This document shows, piece after piece, positions 4,100 through 17,905 of a DNA stretch of 64,000 nucleotides. The stretch covers positions 1-64,000 of the forward strand of contig NZ_SCQN01000014.1 of the NCBI RefSeq assembly GCF_004321985.1, read 5' to 3'. How positions within the stretch are numbered: position 1 is the stretch's first letter; the number at the start of each line of letters is the position of its first letter. The notes under the pieces were generated by a model. The model ran no database searches. It was not told the origin of the DNA and was given only the letters and a program-made list of their open reading frames with translations. The position numbers were made by a program, and so were the translations under genes. This stretch comes from Castellaniella sp. (lineage in GTDB: Bacteria > Pseudomonadota > Gammaproteobacteria > Burkholderiales > Burkholderiaceae_B).

Positions 4100-4291
4100 C
4101 TATCGACGTATCGCTGGCCAGCGTGCGAATGCGAACACCCAAAGCGCAATGATGCCCAGTCCTGGGATCACAAACGGGATCGACCACCATCGACTGTAGC
4201 CTGCCTTGTGCGTGATCATCGCCCAAGGGATGACCATTAAAAGCACAAAGACAAGAACGATCAACCAGTGCCAAACACTAAGGTGTCCCAT
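4100..4291 (-). CDS. Small two-TM membrane protein
   Basis: Unrecognised 63-residue protein with two hydrophobic stretches: WHWLIVLVFVLLMVIPWAMI (about 7-26) and FVIPGLGIIALWVFAFARWP (about 40-59). They are joined by the polar turn THKAGYSRWWS. ATG 4291 is chosen over ATG 4309 because GGAGGG lies 5 bases before it. It follows the small exported-protein gene by 14 bases and probably shares its transcript. A degenerate second copy of this gene lies at about 6240-6365. Proteins with this layout are common orphan inner-membrane proteins of unknown role. Confidence 0.7.
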   Translation of the reverse strand: MGHLSVWHWLIVLVFVLLMVIPWAMITHKAGYSRWWSIPFVIPGLGIIALWVFAFARWPAIRR

Positions 4292-11307: not shown

Positions 11308-11947
11308 ATGCCAGGCTGTCGTTCATGCCAGCTGGCGAGTACATCACCACCAGCGCTGTCGCCGGCCCCCCGAGGCTGCGGCCGCGGTGCGGAATGCGTG
11401 AATCAAAGTGCACCGTATCGCCTGATTCAAGCAGGAACTTCTGGGCACCGACTTGCCACTCCACCCGTCCGGTCAGTAGATGCAGCAGTTCTTCGCCTTC
11501 GTGCTGGAAGAACACGAATTTGTCGATCTGTTCCGGGAAGGTGAATAGAAAAGGCTGCAATGCCTGAGTGGGCGCGGAGTCGCTGAGGGCGAAATAATCG
11601 TAGCCGAAGGTTGTTCCGCCCAGCACCGCCGGGCGTTTTTCGTCGTGTCGCACGACGCTCACTCCGTGCCAGGGTTTCCTGGATCGCGGCGACATCAAAA
11701 GAGACGCAATTTCGAGGCCCAGGGCACCCGCCAGACGCGACAGGGTGGCAATGGGCGGTACCTTCTTGCCGTTTTCAATGCGTGAAAGATAACCCTTGCC
11801 GATGCCGGCCCGAGAAGCGAGCTGCTCCAGTGTGAAGCCCGCAGCAAGCCGATGGCGGCGCAGCCGCATCCCGAGCTCCGCCGGCAAGTTGGGCGTGGTC
11901 GACGCAACGGGTAGCCCTTCAGTCACCATAGTGGCGGTGTCGTTCAT
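11306..11947 (-). CDS. XRE-family regulator with C-terminal cupin
   Basis: Protein of 213 residues. An XRE helix-turn-helix lies at about 25-80 (LGMRLRRHRLAAGFTLEQLA, then GIGKGYLSRIENGKKVPPIA). A cupin sensor domain follows at about 140-205 (VFFQHEGEELLHLLTGRVEW and SGDTVHFDSRIPHRGRSLG). This is the PuuR/SutR-like plan, in which a small ligand bound in the cupin controls DNA binding. ATG 11947 follows AGGAA; ATG 12001 is possible but lies in the predicted -10. It probably controls the neighbouring transporter and cupin genes, which is inference from position. Confidence 0.85.
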   Translation of the reverse strand: MNDTATMVTEGLPVASTTPNLPAELGMRLRRHRLAAGFTLEQLASRAGIGKGYLSRIENGKKVPPIATLSRLAGALGLEIASLLMSPRSRKPWHGVSVVRHDEKRPAVLGGTTFGYDYFALSDSAPTQALQPFLFTFPEQIDKFVFFQHEGEELLHLLTGRVEWQVGAQKFLLESGDTVHFDSRIPHRGRSLGGPATALVVMYSPAGMNDSLA

Positions 11948-11999
11948 GCGTGGTTCCTGCGGGAAGCGGTAGAGGATGGGCCGGGGCTCCAGGGGCTCC

Positions 12000-12028
12000 A
12001 TTATATTTGGTGAGGCCAGGGTTGCACG
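12000..12028 (-). promoter_or_regulatory. Probable promoter of the XRE-cupin gene
   Basis: The minus strand carries a perfect TATAAT (12005-12000). At 17 bp upstream the hexamer CGTGCA (12028-12023) is a weak -35. The predicted start near 11993 gives a leader of about 46 bases. Confidence 0.42.
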
Positions 12029-12067
12029 CCATGCCGTCGGGCTGGATGCGCAGCGTGCGTGATGGCC

Positions 12068-12562
12068 TCAGTGCGCGACGTTGATGGCCTTCCAGTCAGG
12101 ATGGTCAAAGTATGTACCGTAGCTGTTCAATGCCTGGGCGATTTTGATCAGACCCGTTTCGGGTTGTTCGCCTGCAACCTTGCCGTCCATGGTTTCCGCC
12201 CCTTGGGCGATATTGCCCAGCAGGATGTGCAGTTGCGCATCAGCGTCCGGGGCCAGCTTGCAATTCTGGACAATGTAGGTGATTTGTCCCATGACCTTTC
12301 CGGACATCTGGCGATAATCGGCCGGTGTCGACTGATTTGCATGTGCGCCTGACAGCCCACTGGTGACGATTTCGTGCAGGGTACCCATGCCCTGGCGCAG
12401 CGGCGCGTCGGTTTGCCACTTTTGCCCATTGTTGAGTTCCATGGTCTGATGCGCGGCGCCGGCGTGGTCGTGTCCGGCCTCGACCGCGATGGCCTGACCG
12501 ACCATCGCGCTCAGGGGGAACGCCAGCAGCACGGTGGCGAGAAGACGAGTGGTTGATTTCAT
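12068..12562 (-). CDS. Exported DnrO-like protein
   Basis: Protein of 164 residues with a Sec signal peptide (MKSTTRLLATVLLAFPLSAM, cut probably after AIA near residue 26). The His-containing segment GHDHAGAAH is followed by a helical domain with LNNGQKWQTDAPLRQGM, YRQMSGKVMGQITYIVQNC and LHILLGNIAQGAETM. There is no CxxCH haem site, and one Cys in the mature part. I recall this sequence type being called DnrO in denitrifying proteobacteria, of unknown function; the name is uncertain. It is divergent from the HMA/ATPase operon and has its own CRP/FNR-like promoter. Confidence 0.68.
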   Translation of the reverse strand: MKSTTRLLATVLLAFPLSAMVGQAIAVEAGHDHAGAAHQTMELNNGQKWQTDAPLRQGMGTLHEIVTSGLSGAHANQSTPADYRQMSGKVMGQITYIVQNCKLAPDADAQLHILLGNIAQGAETMDGKVAGEQPETGLIKIAQALNSYGTYFDHPDWKAINVAH

Positions 12563-12650
12563 GACTGACTCCTGATCGGATGATGTGTTGAAAATGACCG
12601 ATCCGCATGTCGCCTTTCAGCATTGCGCATTGCCGCGGTCGGTACGGCAA

Positions 12651-12692
12651 ATGTTAAATGGGGCGATCAATAAAAAAATTGACTGCAGTCAG
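12651..12692 (-). promoter_or_regulatory. CRP/FNR-class promoter for the DnrO-like gene
   Basis: The dyad TTGACTGCAGTCAG (12679-12692, perfect inner palindrome TGACTGCAGTCA) is centred at 12685.5. On the minus strand TAACAT (12656-12651) is centred at 12653.5, exactly 32 bp away. In class II FNR/CRP promoters the activator is centred at -41.5 and the -10 box near -9.5, so the spacing is right. The site fits the TTG...CAA core of the superfamily with one outer mismatch. Confidence 0.62.
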
Positions 12693-12752
12693 GTTTGCAT
12701 TCGATCCCGTCATTCTTTCTGGTGACCGTTTTGAAGTCATATTTTTGGGAAC

Positions 12753-12795
12753 TTGTCCGCGGTCAATGTTGCCTGCGAATCCTTCTCCCTAACAT
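12753..12795 (+). promoter_or_regulatory. CRP/FNR-class promoter for the HMA-ATPase-regulator operon
   Basis: The dyad TTGTCCGCGGTCAA (12753-12766) has TTGnC and GnCAA half-sites around CGCG and is centred at 12759.5. TAACAT (12790-12795) is centred at 12792.5, which is 33 bp from the dyad centre and within one base of class II spacing. The same TAACAT hexamer is used by the divergent promoter. The predicted start is near 12801, giving a leader of about 70 bases before the HMA gene. Confidence 0.62.
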
Positions 12796-12873
12796 GGAAC
12801 CGTGATTCTCACGAATGAGATCGCAGCCTTCACAAAAGGGGGCACCCTCATAACCCTGTTATGGAGTTCAGTC

Positions 12874-13095
12874 ATGAAAAAAGTCACTTTCAATATGGAG
12901 CCCTTCACCTGCCCATCCTGCGTCAAGAAAATCGAAAATGCTGTGGGCGGCGTTGGCGGCGTGCAGGAAGCAAGGGTCATGTTCAGTTCGGGCCGGGTTC
13001 ATGTCGATTTTGACGAGTCCAGAGTGGATGTGAATGAACTGGAAAATACGATTGTCCGGTTAGGCTATCCGGTGCTGTCCAGCAAGGTCTCGTGA
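12874..13095 (+). CDS. HMA-domain metal chaperone
   Basis: Protein of 73 residues consisting of one heavy-metal-associated domain. The metal site FTCPSCVKKIE has C13 and C16 in a CPSC loop, followed by the usual beta-alpha-beta-beta-alpha-beta pattern and a GYPV end. ATG 12874 follows GGAG; the longer frame from 12802 begins in the predicted leader. Such domains carry Cu(I), Zn or Cd to P1B ATPases. The ATPase encoded downstream has no N-terminal HMA domain, so this protein probably provides it in trans. The metal is not known. Confidence 0.85.
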   Translation: MKKVTFNMEPFTCPSCVKKIENAVGGVGGVQEARVMFSSGRVHVDFDESRVDVNELENTIVRLGYPVLSSKVS

Positions 13096-13098
13096 AAC

Positions 13099-13157
13099 AG
13101 CCCGATGGGTGCGGCTGGTCTCGAAATCATGCCCTGCGGCTGCACCCGGATCGGGCT
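13099..13157 (+). repeat. Long intercistronic stem-loop
   Basis: AGCCCGATGGGTGC (13099-13112) pairs with GCACCC (13142-13147) and ATCGGGCT (13150-13157) with a 2-base GG bulge, a 14-bp stem around a 29-base loop. It sits in the gap between the chaperone and ATPase genes. No T run follows. It may stabilise the upstream chaperone mRNA or reduce read-through, so that the chaperone is made in excess over the ATPase. Confidence 0.55.
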
Positions 13158-13207
13158 GAATACAGATGCAAGCCTGAACGTCTTGATCTGAATGTCTGGA
13201 GCATAAG

Positions 13208-15112
13208 ATGAGCCCAATCAAAAACTCTCATATTGCGGGGGTGACCGGTCTGATGCTGGCGCTGGCATTTGCGCTGCATTGGATCGACCAGCCCCAATGG
13301 AAGGATTATGTCCTGATTGCTTCGACCCTCGTTGCAGGCTATGTCATTGCATTGAAGGCATTCAAGGCGTTGCGCATGAAGGCTTTCAGTATTGAACTGC
13401 TCGTGACCATCGCCGTGGTCGGCGCACTGATCATCGGTGAGTATGTCGAGTCTGCCGTGGTGACGTTCCTTTTTATCTTTGGCGCCTATCTCGAGGCACG
13501 CACACTGGAGAAGACCCGTTCGTCGCTGCGCAGCCTGATCGACATGGCCCCCACCGAGGCGACAGTCCTGCGCGCCGAAGGCCCGATCAAGGTACTTGCC
13601 GAGGAACTGGTGGCCGGGGATCGCGTGCTGGTGCGCTCTGGCGAGAAGATTGCGGTCGATGGCTCCATTGCGGCCGGGCAGGCGCTGATCGTCGAGGCGG
13701 CGATCACTGGCGAGTCGGTCCCGTCCAACAAGTCGGCGGGCGACCGGGTCTTTAGCGGCACTATTGTCGATGCCGGCTATATCGAAGTCGAGGCCACCCA
13801 GGTGGGCGATGACACGACCTTTTCCAAGATCATCGAGATGGTGGAAGAGGCGCAGGAATCCAAAACCACCACGCAGAAGTTCCTGGACCGCTTCGCCAAT
13901 ATCTACACGCCGGCGATCGTCATCCTCGCGGTGCTCGTGTACGCCGTTTCGCGCAATGTGGAGCTGGCACTGACCTTCCTGGTGATTGCCTGTCCGGGCG
14001 CCTTGGTCATTTCGGCCCCTGTTTCCATGGTGGCCGGGATCGGCAACGGCGCGCGTAATGGGATATTGGTGAAAGGCGGAGAGGCCATGGAGAAGCTCTC
14101 CCGGATCGATGCCGTCGTCTTTGACAAGACCGGCACGCTCACTCGGGGGCGCCCAGAGGTCACGGCGGTGCGGAGCTGGGGGCTGGATGAAGACACGCTG
14201 TTGCGTCTGGTCGCCGAGGCCGAGCTGGGGTCCGAGCATCACCTGGGGCGTGCCATGCTGGCCGAGGCCGCAAGGCGCGAATTGGCACCAGGTGATGGTC
14301 CGCAGGATGTCGATATCGTCAAGGGCGGCGGGCTGAGTGCAACGGTTGCCGGCCGGCGCCTGAACATTGGCAACCGCAAGATGATGGCCGATCTGGGTGT
14401 GGCGATCGACGATTCGGTCCTCGCTTATGCGGCGGATCGCGAGAAAGCGGGCAATACGGCTGTGCTGGTCGCGGTCGATGACCGTCTGGCGGGGGTTGTC
14501 TCGGTAGCCGACCAGGTCAAGCCCGAGGCCGCCATGGCTATCGAACAACTGCGCCGAGCCGGGGTAAAGCGGGCCATCATGCTGACTGGCGATAATCACC
14601 ACGCCGCGCGGCGGGTGGGCGATGCGCTTGGGCTGGACGAAGTGCATGCCGAACTGCTGCCGCAGGACAAAGTCGCTTGGGTCAGTGCGCTCAAGCAGCA
14701 GGGGTACCGGGTGGCCATGGTCGGTGATGGCGTGAATGATGCCCCCGCGCTTGCCACGGCGGATGTTGGCCTGGCCATGGGCATCAGCGGTACGGATATC
14801 TCGATGGAAACCGCTGATGTCGTGCTGATGTCGGATCGGCTGGATCAGTTTGCGCACGCTTACACGCTGGCCAAGGCGACGGTTCGCAATATGAAGCAAA
14901 ATACTACTGTCGCCATCGTGACGGTGGTGTTGCTGCTCGCCGGTGTGTTGCTGGGCAGGATATTCCTGGCTTCGGGGATGCTGGTGCACGAGTTGAGCGT
15001 ATTGCTGGTGACGCTCAATGCAATCAGGCTGATCCGCTACCGTCAGTCGCGGCCCGTTTCTCATGCTGATGGGAGCCCTGCAGATGAGTCCCGACCTTCG
15101 CTCACCGCCTGA
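13208..15112 (+). CDS. P1B-type heavy-metal ATPase with CPG motif
   Basis: Integral membrane P-type ATPase of 634 residues. Family motifs: TGES at 167-170, DKTGTLT with phosphorylated D306, TGDN at 460-463 and GDGVNDAPAL at 506-515. Two signature sites differ from the norm. The transmembrane metal site is CPG (262-264, ACPGALVIS) instead of CPC/CPH/SPC. The N-domain HP pair reads HH (344-345 in GSEHHLGRAM). There is no N-terminal HMA domain; a separate HMA protein is encoded upstream. The family exports or imports soft metals, but the altered site makes the metal uncertain. The gene overlaps the CRP/FNR gene by 29 bases. Confidence 0.88.
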   Translation: MSPIKNSHIAGVTGLMLALAFALHWIDQPQWKDYVLIASTLVAGYVIALKAFKALRMKAFSIELLVTIAVVGALIIGEYVESAVVTFLFIFGAYLEARTLEKTRSSLRSLIDMAPTEATVLRAEGPIKVLAEELVAGDRVLVRSGEKIAVDGSIAAGQALIVEAAITGESVPSNKSAGDRVFSGTIVDAGYIEVEATQVGDDTTFSKIIEMVEEAQESKTTTQKFLDRFANIYTPAIVILAVLVYAVSRNVELALTFLVIACPGALVISAPVSMVAGIGNGARNGILVKGGEAMEKLSRIDAVVFDKTGTLTRGRPEVTAVRSWGLDEDTLLRLVAEAELGSEHHLGRAMLAEAARRELAPGDGPQDVDIVKGGGLSATVAGRRLNIGNRKMMADLGVAIDDSVLAYAADREKAGNTAVLVAVDDRLAGVVSVADQVKPEAAMAIEQLRRAGVKRAIMLTGDNHHAARRVGDALGLDEVHAELLPQDKVAWVSALKQQGYRVAMVGDGVNDAPALATADVGLAMGISGTDISMETADVVLMSDRLDQFAHAYTLAKATVRNMKQNTTVAIVTVVLLLAGVLLGRIFLASGMLVHELSVLLVTLNAIRLIRYRQSRPVSHADGSPADESRPSLTA

Positions 15113-15791
15113 AAAGGTCCACGAACATGCCGTGGAGTCCTGTGTCGCGCGTGTACCGATCTTCAACCACTTGCCCGTAGACCAGCTCTCGGTCATCGCT
15201 GGCAAGGCGCTGATGCACACCTACGACCGAGGGCAGTTCATCCACCGCGCCGGCGATCCATCGGACAAGCTGTTCATCGTCCATCGCGGCCAGGTCAAGG
15301 TCTATCGCCTGGCCGACAATGGCAAGGAACAACTGGTGCGCATCCTGAGTGCGGGCGATTTTGCCGGCGAGCTGGCCCTCTTTGCGGCGACCAGTCAGGA
15401 TTCGTACGCACAGGCCATGCAGCCATCGCAAGTCTGCACAATCTACCAGACTGATGTGCGTCGGCTACTGCTTCAGTATCCCGACATCAGCCTGCACGTC
15501 CTGGCCGAACTCTCCCGGCGCCTGGATACCAGCGAAAAACAGACGGCGGCGATTGCCACAGCCTCAATCAACGCCCGGCTGGCGCAGTACCTGGTCGATC
15601 AAGCGCATCACGCGGGCAGCGATGACTTCAGCCTGTCCATGAGCCGTCGGCACATGGCCTCGTTCTTGGGGACGACTCCGGAGACGGTCAGCCGCCGCCT
15701 GGGTGAATTCGAAGAGGCCGGGTGGATTTCGCAAAGCGGTCAGCGCCAGATAACGATTCTGGATCGTGCGGCTCTGCTGAGGGTCGAGTGA
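15084..15791 (+). CDS. CRP/FNR-family transcriptional regulator
   Basis: Protein of 235 residues. A cyclic-nucleotide-binding-type sensor barrel spans about 25-130 (HRAGDPSDKLFIVHRGQVKV, LSAGDFAGELALF). A dimer helix and a winged helix-turn-helix follow, with recognition helix TTPETVSRRLGEF (about 198-210). Its E200, S203 and R204 match the E-SR pattern of FNR-type readers of TTG...CAA sites. Only two Cys (C20, C118) are present, so an FNR-type 4Fe-4S cluster is unlikely; a DNR-like haem or ligand sensor is possible. ATG 15084 follows GGGAG and lies inside the ATPase gene, implying coupling. It probably activates its own operon and the divergent gene. Confidence 0.88.
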   Translation: MSPDLRSPPEKVHEHAVESCVARVPIFNHLPVDQLSVIAGKALMHTYDRGQFIHRAGDPSDKLFIVHRGQVKVYRLADNGKEQLVRILSAGDFAGELALFAATSQDSYAQAMQPSQVCTIYQTDVRRLLLQYPDISLHVLAELSRRLDTSEKQTAAIATASINARLAQYLVDQAHHAGSDDFSLSMSRRHMASFLGTTPETVSRRLGEFEEAGWISQSGQRQITILDRAALLRVE

Positions 15792-15844
15792 GTGTTACCT
15801 GCTGTGGGATGGGAGCTGTCTATGAATGAACCGGAGGATCTGCC

Positions 15845-16306
15845 ATGAGTCGGTTGGAATTGCTCGTTCCGCCACCTGTCGTGATGCTGGTGGTCGCCTT
15901 GGCGATGTGGGCGGTATCGCGGACGTTTCCGATGCAGCTGCTGCCCGAGGCGAGTCGGCTCGTGCTGGGCATTATCCTGGGTCTGCTGGGAGTAGGGGCG
16001 GGTGTGGCCGGGATCCTGGCCTTCCGGCGCGCGCGTACGACGACTGACCCCAGGAAGCCGGCGCGTGCGACCGCATTGGTGACGTCGGGGATTTATCGCT
16101 ACAGCCGTAATCCCATGTATCTGGGCGTGCTGCTTGTACTGGCGGGTTGGGCGGTGGTGCTTGGCAATCCGGTATCGGCGTTGGGCGTATTGATCTACGC
16201 CTTGTACATCACCCGCTACCAGATTTATCCAGAGGAGCGTCAATTGCTCAAGACCTTCGGCCCCGGGTTCCTCAGCTACAAGGCCGCCGTGCACCGGTGG
16301 ATCTGA
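15845..16306 (+). CDS. ICMT/PEMT-family membrane methyltransferase-like protein
   Basis: Protein of 153 residues with about four membrane segments. It carries the isoprenylcysteine-methyltransferase signature GIYRYSRNPMYLGVLLV (about 82-98) and a C-terminal PEERQLLKTFGPGFLSYKAA (about 126-145), together forming the SAM pocket of the family. A strong GGAGGAT ribosome site precedes ATG 15845. It lies 53 bases after the CRP/FNR gene and may be the last gene of that operon. The methyl acceptor is unknown; relatives often sit beside metal-resistance genes. Confidence 0.82.
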   Translation: MSRLELLVPPPVVMLVVALAMWAVSRTFPMQLLPEASRLVLGIILGLLGVGAGVAGILAFRRARTTTDPRKPARATALVTSGIYRYSRNPMYLGVLLVLAGWAVVLGNPVSALGVLIYALYITRYQIYPEERQLLKTFGPGFLSYKAAVHRWI

Positions 16307-16384
16307 AGAAAGGGGGAAAGCGGAAAGGATGAAACCGCACATGAATGGCGCTCTCTACACCGGGTCACCCCGCCGTTGAGCGAT

Positions 16385-17905
16385 ATGACCGGAACCGCCA
16401 GCAGCTTTCGACCGGCCAGCCTGGCGCTGGCAACGGTGGGGCTGTCGCTGGGGACCTTCATGCAGGTCCTGGACATTACGATCGCCAATGTATCGTTGCC
16501 CACCATCGCGGGGAATCTGGGGGCCAGCCAGGATCAGTCCACCTGGGTGATCACCTCATTCACGGTCTGTCAGGCGATCACGCTGCCCATGACGGGCTTT
16601 CTGTCGCGCCGCTTCGGCCAGGTCCGGGTCTTCATTTCGGCCGTTCTGCTGTTCTCACTGTTTTCGCTGGCCTGTGGCCTGTCGGTCAGCCTGCCCATGC
16701 TGGTGATGTTCCGTGCCCTTCAGGGTGCAGTGTGCGGGCCCATGTACCCGATCACTCAGAGCCTGATGGTGTCGATATATCCGCACGAGAAGCGCGCCAT
16801 GGCGCTGGCCATCATCAGCATGATCACGGTGGTGGCGCCCATTGTGGGGCCCGTCGCGGGTGGCTGGATTACCGACTCCTATTCCTGGCGATGGATCTTC
16901 TTCATCAACGTGCCCATCGGCATGGTGGCTGCGCTGCTGGTGGTGGTTCAGATGGGCAAGCGCATCGATGAACTGCGTCGGGGACGCATCGACTGGGTGG
17001 GCGTGGCCACCTTGATCCTGGGCGTGGGGTCATTGCAGATATTGCTGGATCGTGGCAACGAACTGGATTGGTTCAATTCCACGACGATTCGGCTGTTGGC
17101 GGCCGTCGCCGTCGTGGCGTTGACGGTCTTCGTCATCTGGGAGCTGACCGACGATCAACCCGTCGTGGATTTGCGGCTGTTCCGCCACCGCAATTTTGCG
17201 GCGGGCACGTTTGCGCTGGTGCTGGCCTTCGGCCTGTTTTTCGCGGTGTCGCTGCTGCTGCCGTTGTGGATGCAGAACACCCTGGGTTATACGGCATTGT
17301 GGTCGGGCCTGGCCGTCGCACCGATTGGCATCATCCCGGTTCTGCTGACGTTTTGGGTGGGCAAGTATGCAGCGCGGATGGACTTGCGCTGGCTGACCGC
17401 GCTTTCTTTCGCCGTCATGGGCTATGTGTGCTTGCGCATTGGCGGCTTCACCACAGAGGTGGGTTTCTGGAGCATCGCCTGGACCGAGCTGGTGATGGGG
17501 TTGGGGGTGGCGCTGTTCTTCATGCCTATCCTGACGATCCTGTTGTCTGACCTGGAGGGATCGGAGATCGCCGAGGGGTCCGGGTCGGCGACCTTTCTGC
17601 GCACGGTCGGTGCGAGCTTCGCTGTTTCCATCATCACTTATCTGTGGACGCGTGGGGCGTCGGCCAGCCATGCACACCTGGTCGAGTTCATCACGGTCTC
17701 CAGTGCCCAGGTACGCCAGGGGATCGAGGCAGCTGGTTCCGTGGACCGGTATGCGGCCATGATGAACGGCATCATCACCCAGCAGTCCATGCAGATTTCC
17801 TTCAACCAGATGTTCAACGCCTTGGGCTTCTGTTTTTTTGCCCTGATTGCCGTGGTGTGGTTGTCCCGGCCGCCGTTCGTGCGCCAGCGGGCACGGCCGC
17901 CGTAG
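16385..17905 (+). CDS. DHA2-type MFS efflux pump (EmrB/QacA family)
   Basis: Protein of 506 residues with 14 predicted membrane segments. It has the DHA2 marker LDITIANVSLPTIAGNLGAS (about 31-50), motif A FLSRRFGQVRVF near 77 and motif C in the fifth segment (GPVAGGWITDSYSWRWIFF). It should export drugs or other amphipaths with proton exchange. No adjacent EmrA-type adaptor or TolC gene is present. ATG 16385 is used; TTG 16376 in frame is an alternative and neither has a clear ribosome site. It follows the ICMT gene on the same strand by 78 bases. Confidence 0.86.
   Translation: MTGTASSFRPASLALATVGLSLGTFMQVLDITIANVSLPTIAGNLGASQDQSTWVITSFTVCQAITLPMTGFLSRRFGQVRVFISAVLLFSLFSLACGLSVSLPMLVMFRALQGAVCGPMYPITQSLMVSIYPHEKRAMALAIISMITVVAPIVGPVAGGWITDSYSWRWIFFINVPIGMVAALLVVVQMGKRIDELRRGRIDWVGVATLILGVGSLQILLDRGNELDWFNSTTIRLLAAVAVVALTVFVIWELTDDQPVVDLRLFRHRNFAAGTFALVLAFGLFFAVSLLLPLWMQNTLGYTALWSGLAVAPIGIIPVLLTFWVGKYAARMDLRWLTALSFAVMGYVCLRIGGFTTEVGFWSIAWTELVMGLGVALFFMPILTILLSDLEGSEIAEGSGSATFLRTVGASFAVSIITYLWTRGASASHAHLVEFITVSSAQVRQGIEAAGSVDRYAAMMNGIITQQSMQISFNQMFNALGFCFFALIAVVWLSRPPFVRQRARPP

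Follow-up and report, generated by a model that had tools for sequence, protein, structure and literature searches.

Two back-to-back promoters of CRP/FNR class II form, located in one intergenic region of Castellaniella sp., are very probably both activated by the neighbouring FLP-kind regulator, one of them driving the operon that encodes the regulator itself. The region lies in a 64,000-nt stretch of DNA (the window, meaning the whole stretch that was analysed) of a 3.4 Mb genome (G000). Binding, activation and autoregulation by this protein are what we infer from sequence comparison, and the arrangement reads as a dedicated, self-activating local regulon with a predicted role in metal export.

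Sites and promoter geometry

The 308-nt intergenic region, flanked by the leftward gene of a predicted exported protein and by a rightward HMA gene, holds two dyads and two TAACAT boxes. The features concerned are the following (coordinates in the window).

12068–12562, minus strand: open reading frame for a 164-aa predicted exported protein with a His-rich mature N-terminus; no family model match
12651–12656, minus strand: leftward (dnrO) −10 box TAACAT, read as ATGTTA on the forward strand; all 23 aligned promoters have TANNAT
12679–12692, no strand assigned: left FNR-type dyad TTGACTGCAGTCAG, centre at about −41.5 of the leftward promoter
12753–12766, no strand assigned: right FNR-type dyad TTGTCCGCGGTCAA, centre at about −42 of the rightward promoter
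12790–12795, plus strand: rightward (operon) −10 box TAACAT, identified by sequence and conserved in relatives and in the 23-promoter alignment
12871–13095, plus strand: HMA (CopZ-like) metallochaperone, MKKVTFNMEPFTCPSC (PF00403, E = 5.8e-12)
13208–15112, plus strand: P1B-type metal ATPase with intramembrane CPG and without an N-terminal HMA domain (TIGR01525, E = 2.3e-169)
15063–15791, plus strand: CRP/FNR-family regulator, FLP-type (PF00027, E = 2.3e-21; PF13545, E = 1.8e-21); start codon uncertain, possibly 15084
15845–16306, plus strand: phospholipid/isoprenylcysteine (PEMT/ICMT) methyltransferase-like gene (PF04191)

Centre to centre, dyad and −10 box are 32 nt apart on the left and 33 nt on the right; from start to start the distance is 36–37 nt on both sides, and the promoters point outwards; an earlier note on this DNA had described two dyads 32–33 bp from identical TAACAT boxes facing opposite ways, and this was exact to the base. 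The fifth base is C in all four half-sites of the window. Neither place held a sigma-70 promoter with a −35 box in a consensus scan, as is expected of activator-dependent promoters, and both candidates have the class II form of CRP/FNR targets, with a dyad near −41.5, a good −10 box and no −35 box. An RNA element was dropped as a reading because no Rfam match reached the gathering score in 11900–16500.

The pattern TG[AT]C-N4-GTCAA followed after 22–23 nt by TANNNT occurred exactly twice in the 64 kb (both strands), at these two sites, and on average 0.0 times in 30 first-order Markov versions of the window. A chance origin of the paired sites was rejected: when the 308-nt intergenic region was simulated 20,000 times by a Markov model, no version contained two of them together. 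Bare dyads (TTGAC-N4-GTCA) were near chance in the whole genome (19, versus 14 for the reversed control), so that the evidence rests on the dyad with its spaced −10 box and on conservation; TTGTC-N4-GTCAA occurred 4 times versus 0 for the control, too few to judge. A correctly spaced −10 box was present at 3 of 46 oriented dyads checked in this genome, two of them being the window sites; the third, with TANNNT at the right spacing, lies at G000:C55:138965 (L185).

Conservation of the rightward promoter

An orthologue of the regulator (58–74% identity) was found in 8 of 60 relatives, and in all seven relatives having upstream DNA an HMA-ATPase-Crp operon was present with a dyad ahead of HMA and TANNAT at 36–37 nt, counted from dyad start to −10 start; six of these dyads were found by pattern and that of L027 (half-site GTCAT) by eye. 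The comparison of dyads in orthologous regions, which had been proposed as a check, showed polarity and the 36–37 nt spacing kept while the flanking sequence had diverged. Conservation of both dyads amid diverged flanks favours one autoregulated CRP/FNR protein acting on both promoters.

A wider homologue scan covered 84,980 species genomes and yielded 198 confirmed loci, the best 80 of which were used for all counts out of 80; selection was made on two protein stretches other than the Cys pair and the PE--SR helix described below. Among these best 80 of 198, 44 loci had HMA-ATPase-Crp, three had HMA further upstream, one had no HMA, and 32 were without a full ATPase directly upstream in the available DNA. 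When a strict dyad-plus-spacing rule was applied to the 200 nt upstream, it was satisfied by 39 of the 48 ATPase operons versus 19 of 6,504 random segments from the same loci; of the nine that failed, eight showed a near-miss site on inspection, and in the remaining one (L059) the dyad stands before dnrO. In 19 of the 39 operons satisfying the rule, T occupied position five of the upstream half-site, and TTGAT-like half-sites were also common in operons of Bacillota.

Genes of the operon

The ATPase has the E1-E2 core, DKTGT and an intramembrane xPx and scores above the TIGR01525 cut-off, features by which it is assigned to the P1B type. All 48 operonic ATPases carry CPG (47 by script, L077 by eye), and 47 of the 48 also carry HE-x-S-(V/I)-(L/I) close to the C-terminus; the family carrying CPG and HE-x-S presumably falls outside the P1B motif classes. 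Profile matches were to solved structures of CopA, ZntA and a Cd-type pump, and the full P1B core is shared with known P1B-type ATPases (ZntA, CoaT, copper pumps), from which the present pump differs in its separate HMA gene, in HE-x-S-(V/I)-(L/I) and in having CPG as against what we take to be their CPC or SPC. The earlier note had the rightward operon ending with a CRP/FNR gene: such a gene is indeed contained in it, on the plus strand, while its place as the operon end is uncertain, the methyltransferase-like gene beginning 53 nt past the crp stop on the same strand. That gene is possibly the last of the operon; in 9 of the 23 best-scoring loci a methyltransferase gene of this kind is located no more than 300 nt downstream of crp.

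Leftward promoter and the exported protein

The 164-aa protein is predicted to be exported from its hydrophobic N-terminus and was called DnrO-like in the earlier note, a name used here only as a label. It had no match in Pfam or NCBIfam; a literature search for DnrO returned nothing relevant, the sole paper with DnrO and 'periplasmic' being unrelated by its title. AlphaFold2 predicts it as a four-helix bundle (pLDDT 82) whose His-rich beginning is unstructured; a PDB fold search with this model gave a best match at E = 0.5 and none at or below 0.001, and a PDB sequence search with the protein gave nothing useful. A role in periplasmic metal or redox handling would be consistent with these features.

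The left promoter was kept in seven of the eight loci in which dnrO is divergent from this system. Orthologues of dnrO, 60–63% identical and divergent from HMA, were found in Pollutimonas subterranea (L040), Pusillimonas sp. MFBS29 (L041) and L043, the last of these genomes having a second such divergent copy, and in L049 and L061 dnrO is divergent from crp itself; these six arrangements and the window all have a TGAC-N4-GTCAA dyad towards dnrO with TANNAT at 36 nt. The exception is L051, in which dnrO is shortened and the left dyad absent. Three other Alcaligenaceae genomes have the mirrored promoter pair too, one of them in two copies. In the L043 genome the two mirrored dnrO/HMA copies (L171, L175; G429 C5:65920-66115 and 80667-80879) are about 15 kb apart.

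Taken by itself, the left dyad could be non-functional or an upstream auxiliary site of the rightward operon, with only the right site truly autoregulated. In L044 the left dyad is still there though dnrO and the left −10 box are gone, and among genus relatives, six of nine of which have a dnrO homologue, those found lie elsewhere, as an auxiliary site would allow. Yet the TANNAT box is exactly 36 nt from the dyad start in seven of seven left-dyad loci, the distance between the dyads varies (74 nt in the window, 123 nt in L040) while that from dyad to −10 box is fixed, and in two loci (L059, L062) dnrO is placed inside the operon as its first gene, behind a single promoter of this form. On this evidence an auxiliary or idle left site is very improbable, and activation of both promoters by the neighbouring regulator is preferred. 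No left dyad of this form was present in seven close relatives having the operon. Ten dnrO homologues located elsewhere in related genomes (25–46% identity) lacked such a site in their upstream 330 nt, with only three loose matches of another form.

Several further observations concern dnrO homologues at large. An order-wide survey (L135-L162) found them in 45 of 399 genomes, some near other CRP/FNR-like, hemerythrin-like or ferredoxin-like genes (by eye). The dnrO paralogues of L030-L034, in genus relatives, stand behind a gene with a CpxP-like look and share a GGAACTTTT-type element (by eye), which may be an ECF sigma promoter. A DUF6448 gene (L089, 4830-5468) with a class II dyad promoter adjoins a regulator homologue, and its product may be a Bacillota counterpart of DnrO.

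One kind of promoter, confined to the regulator gene

For a shared promoter model, 23 promoters were aligned (15 right, 6 left, 2 from loci with dnrO in the operon). Left out were L044 (left −10 box missing; right promoter not added), L058 (a near copy of L057), L027, and L022-L025 and L028 (mostly the same contigs as L046, L047, L050 and L056). TG-N7-TCAA and TANNAT were invariant in the alignment and the spacing varied by one base; the half-site nearest the −10 box was GTCAA in 21 of 23 and ATCAA in 2 of 23, across the left and right sides of the comparison. In the genome of the window the model matched twice, at the two window sites (E = 1.7e-6 and 2.0e-5), in a search that scored 150 of 437 first-look candidates, so that weak sites may be missed; a genome-wide set of sites was rejected on this result. 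Each of five genus relatives with crp gave one strong site (E at most 3.5e-7), and four genus relatives without crp gave a best match of only E = 0.032. As the training set includes several of these sites, the result is one of confinement, not of independent discovery. In nine further genomes 13 matches were obtained in eight, located at this system by coordinates, with mirrored pairs in three genomes and two pairs in one of them; the L060 genome had no match at E 0.1.

The strict pattern gave the same distribution. Across the best 80 of the 198 loci, 80 strict sites fell in the interval from −3.5 kb to +1 kb around crp and 4 elsewhere, a density near crp 26-fold above that of the rest of the loci, and the reversed pattern was found 0 times; the 26 of 80 loci without a strict site near crp comprise 8 operons with a near-miss and 18 loci without a full ATPase directly upstream. 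By alignment, model and pattern, the left and right promoters were shown to be of one kind, conserved and restricted to the neighbourhood of the regulator gene, which such sites adjoin in Alcaligenaceae and in Bacillota alike.

This confinement bears on whether the dyads might be bound by some other FNR/DNR-type protein responding to oxygen or NO, the neighbouring regulator being a passenger or co-target. Further CRP/FNR proteins that could bind are encoded in the genome (six matches in all), and FNR and DNR boxes, given as TTGAT-N4-ATCAA in PMC1274295, are close to the present sites, the more so as T stands at the fifth base in the 19 operons mentioned above. Against such a protein, the sites stay beside this one regulator gene in Alcaligenaceae and Bacillota, and the model found no others in the own genome. 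In addition, the C at base five of the four window half-sites is HcpR-like, not FNR-like: for HcpR of Geobacter/Desulfuromonas and of cyanobacteria PMC1274295 gives wyTTGACnnnnGTCAArw, with which the window dyads agree. It also describes hcpR in two cyanobacteria as divergent from its target, with no further sites in the genome. The window differs from these HcpR systems in that no hcp or nor gene was noticed adjoining crp. E. coli FNR and FNR/ANR-type proteins share the class II geometry near −41.5 and the E--SR helix, and are set apart by base five of the window dyads, which is C and not T, and by a site set that is local here, not global.

Two alphaproteobacterial plasmids with HMA and a CPG-type ATPase are also relevant to this alternative. 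One island stands beside a LysR gene and the other has no annotated regulator (the plasmid annotation being incomplete); the first (L199) had no site and the second (L204) a single weak match. Taken together, binding by another FNR-type protein is improbable, and the neighbouring regulator is kept as the activator of both promoters. On L199 (Rhizobium sp. Khangiran2 plasmid) a DnrO homologue, the LysR regulator, a copper chaperone and the CPG-type ATPase occur together, a comparable group of genes next to a regulator of a different kind.

Regulator homologues (E 1e-40 or better, below 60% identity) were found on 343 plasmid records, 227 of which are Enterococcus. One plasmid island, from Carnobacterium (L200) and outside the training set, was read through: it carries dps, crp, a small gene with lgt, HMA and the ATPase, and sites at 4148, 4894, 5831, 6911 and 7376 place a dyad with TANNNT 36 nt on ahead of all five units, crp included. 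The strict rule was satisfied at four units and a looser rule only at the small gene; one more strict match (L200:283), presumably due to chance, is located within a transposase gene.

The regulator and its signal

The regulator has a cNMP-binding-like domain and a Crp-type HTH, which place it in the CRP/FNR superfamily, and the E-SR recognition helix named in the earlier note is present as E207, S210 and R211. Its relevant cysteines are only Cys27 and Cys125, which we take to stand in the places of FNR Cys29 and Cys122 (FNR numbering). The equivalents of both cysteines and the PE--SR helix were found in 80 of 80 homologues (best 80 of 198). The approximately 20 residues before Cys27 contained 13.1% His and 5.4% Cys versus 1.9% and 0.8% over the remaining sequence (80 homologues, with start codons chosen by script); in the window protein this arm holds just two His (His20 and His22), and it is short in some homologues (L096).

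The cluster of FNR is held by four cysteines, three N-terminal ones and Cys122, and FNR proper (a 4Fe-4S oxygen sensor) was rejected as a settled identity because the window protein is without two of these four. cAMP-CRP was rejected because the arginine of the Arg-Ser pair that, in our reading of CRP, comes behind GE-L-LF in the cyclic nucleotide site is absent, the window having SQDSYAQA versus a presumed QERSAWVRA in CRP, with the pairing likewise assumed. With its N-terminal and central Cys and its E--SR helix the protein is assigned to the FLP type, the definition of which is partly our own assumption.

FLP proteins (Lactobacillus casei FLP, Lactococcus lactis FlpA/FlpB, Streptococcus suis FlpS) share the CRP/FNR fold, the E--SR helix and the scarcity of cysteines, a likeness judged by features without alignment to any FLP reference sequence; they are Gram-positive proteins, and homologues of the window regulator are common in Bacillota. 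The window system is unlike them in occurring in Alcaligenaceae, in its divergent exported-protein gene and in its TTGAC/TTGTC half-sites. L. casei FLP has a two-cysteine switch, and the flp genes of L. lactis close operons with an ATPase-like gene. Since flpB of Lactococcus is also said, in PMC9964109, to be involved in zinc homeostasis, a link between such a regulator and a pump is not wholly new. A different upstream motif, not this dyad, was reported for the L. lactis genes flpA and flpB; upstream of flpB, a motif that had been proposed for FlpA is absent (both from PMC3547956). FlpS of S. suis, as described in PMC5039431, has two N-terminal cysteines, adjoins arcABC and follows oxygen; its C129S exchange left arcABC expression unaffected, which counts against a needed central cysteine if the residue corresponds. 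The same paper states that L. casei FLP might need no cluster to work and, for L. lactis FlpA, cites N-terminal ligands other than cysteine. Literature searches gave no paper that ties an FNR-like gene to a metal pump, a weak negative in that subscription journals were mostly uncovered; in passages of two papers, FNR-like and P-type ATPase both occur without being linked (PMC545781) or the terms stand in unrelated table rows (PMC10434189).

The low-oxygen or nitric oxide signal hinted at in the earlier note was not established: two of the FNR ligands given above are missing, and redox or metal would fit equally. That Cys27, Cys125 and the His/Cys arm sense a redox or low-oxygen cue is a guess with roughly even chances of being right. 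Alternatively, the regulator might not be a redox sensor and might bind the exported metal directly through the arm and the two cysteines, as the enrichment of His and Cys in the arm, a regulon dedicated to chaperone and pump, and the zinc role of flpB would suggest. This is somewhat unlikely, given the redox or iron genes neighbouring the regulator in some relatives (Dps, ferritin, globin, rubredoxin-like, ferric reductase, rhodanese), the oxygen response of FlpS, the shortness of the arm in some members and the mere two His in the window protein. Regulator homologues without a pump were also seen in L065, where rhodanese and Sulf_transp (YeeE-type) genes follow, and in L070, which is alike by eye.

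Proposed circuit and its meaning

In the proposed circuit the FLP-kind regulator, product of the third rightward gene, would bind both dyads centred near −41.5 and recruit RNA polymerase to a TANNAT box without a −35 box. Its rightward targets would be the chaperone, the CPG-type P1B ATPase and its own gene, and its leftward target the secreted four-helix protein. The cue is guessed to be redox or low oxygen, possibly metal, and the function to be metal export once cells are reduced or metal-loaded. A single autoregulated regulator for both promoters, as first suggested in the earlier note, is favoured by the conserved dyads, their polarity and spacing and the confinement to two sites.

A broader and rather unlikely extension is that the system represents phylum-spanning metal-defence islands, in which a CRP/FNR protein binding a metal or a metal-sensitive cluster through its His/Cys arm acts on near-identical class II promoters; if true, these promoters would fire only within a few kb of the regulator gene and drive a CPG-type pump and a secreted partner. 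What began as a guess by eye becomes a testable local circuit with one regulator, few near-identical promoters and one pump. Homologues of the regulator are also borne on plasmids, the same promoters recur in the one island read (Carnobacterium), and simple reporter tests could reveal both the signal and which metal is handled by this widespread ATPase of the CPG type.
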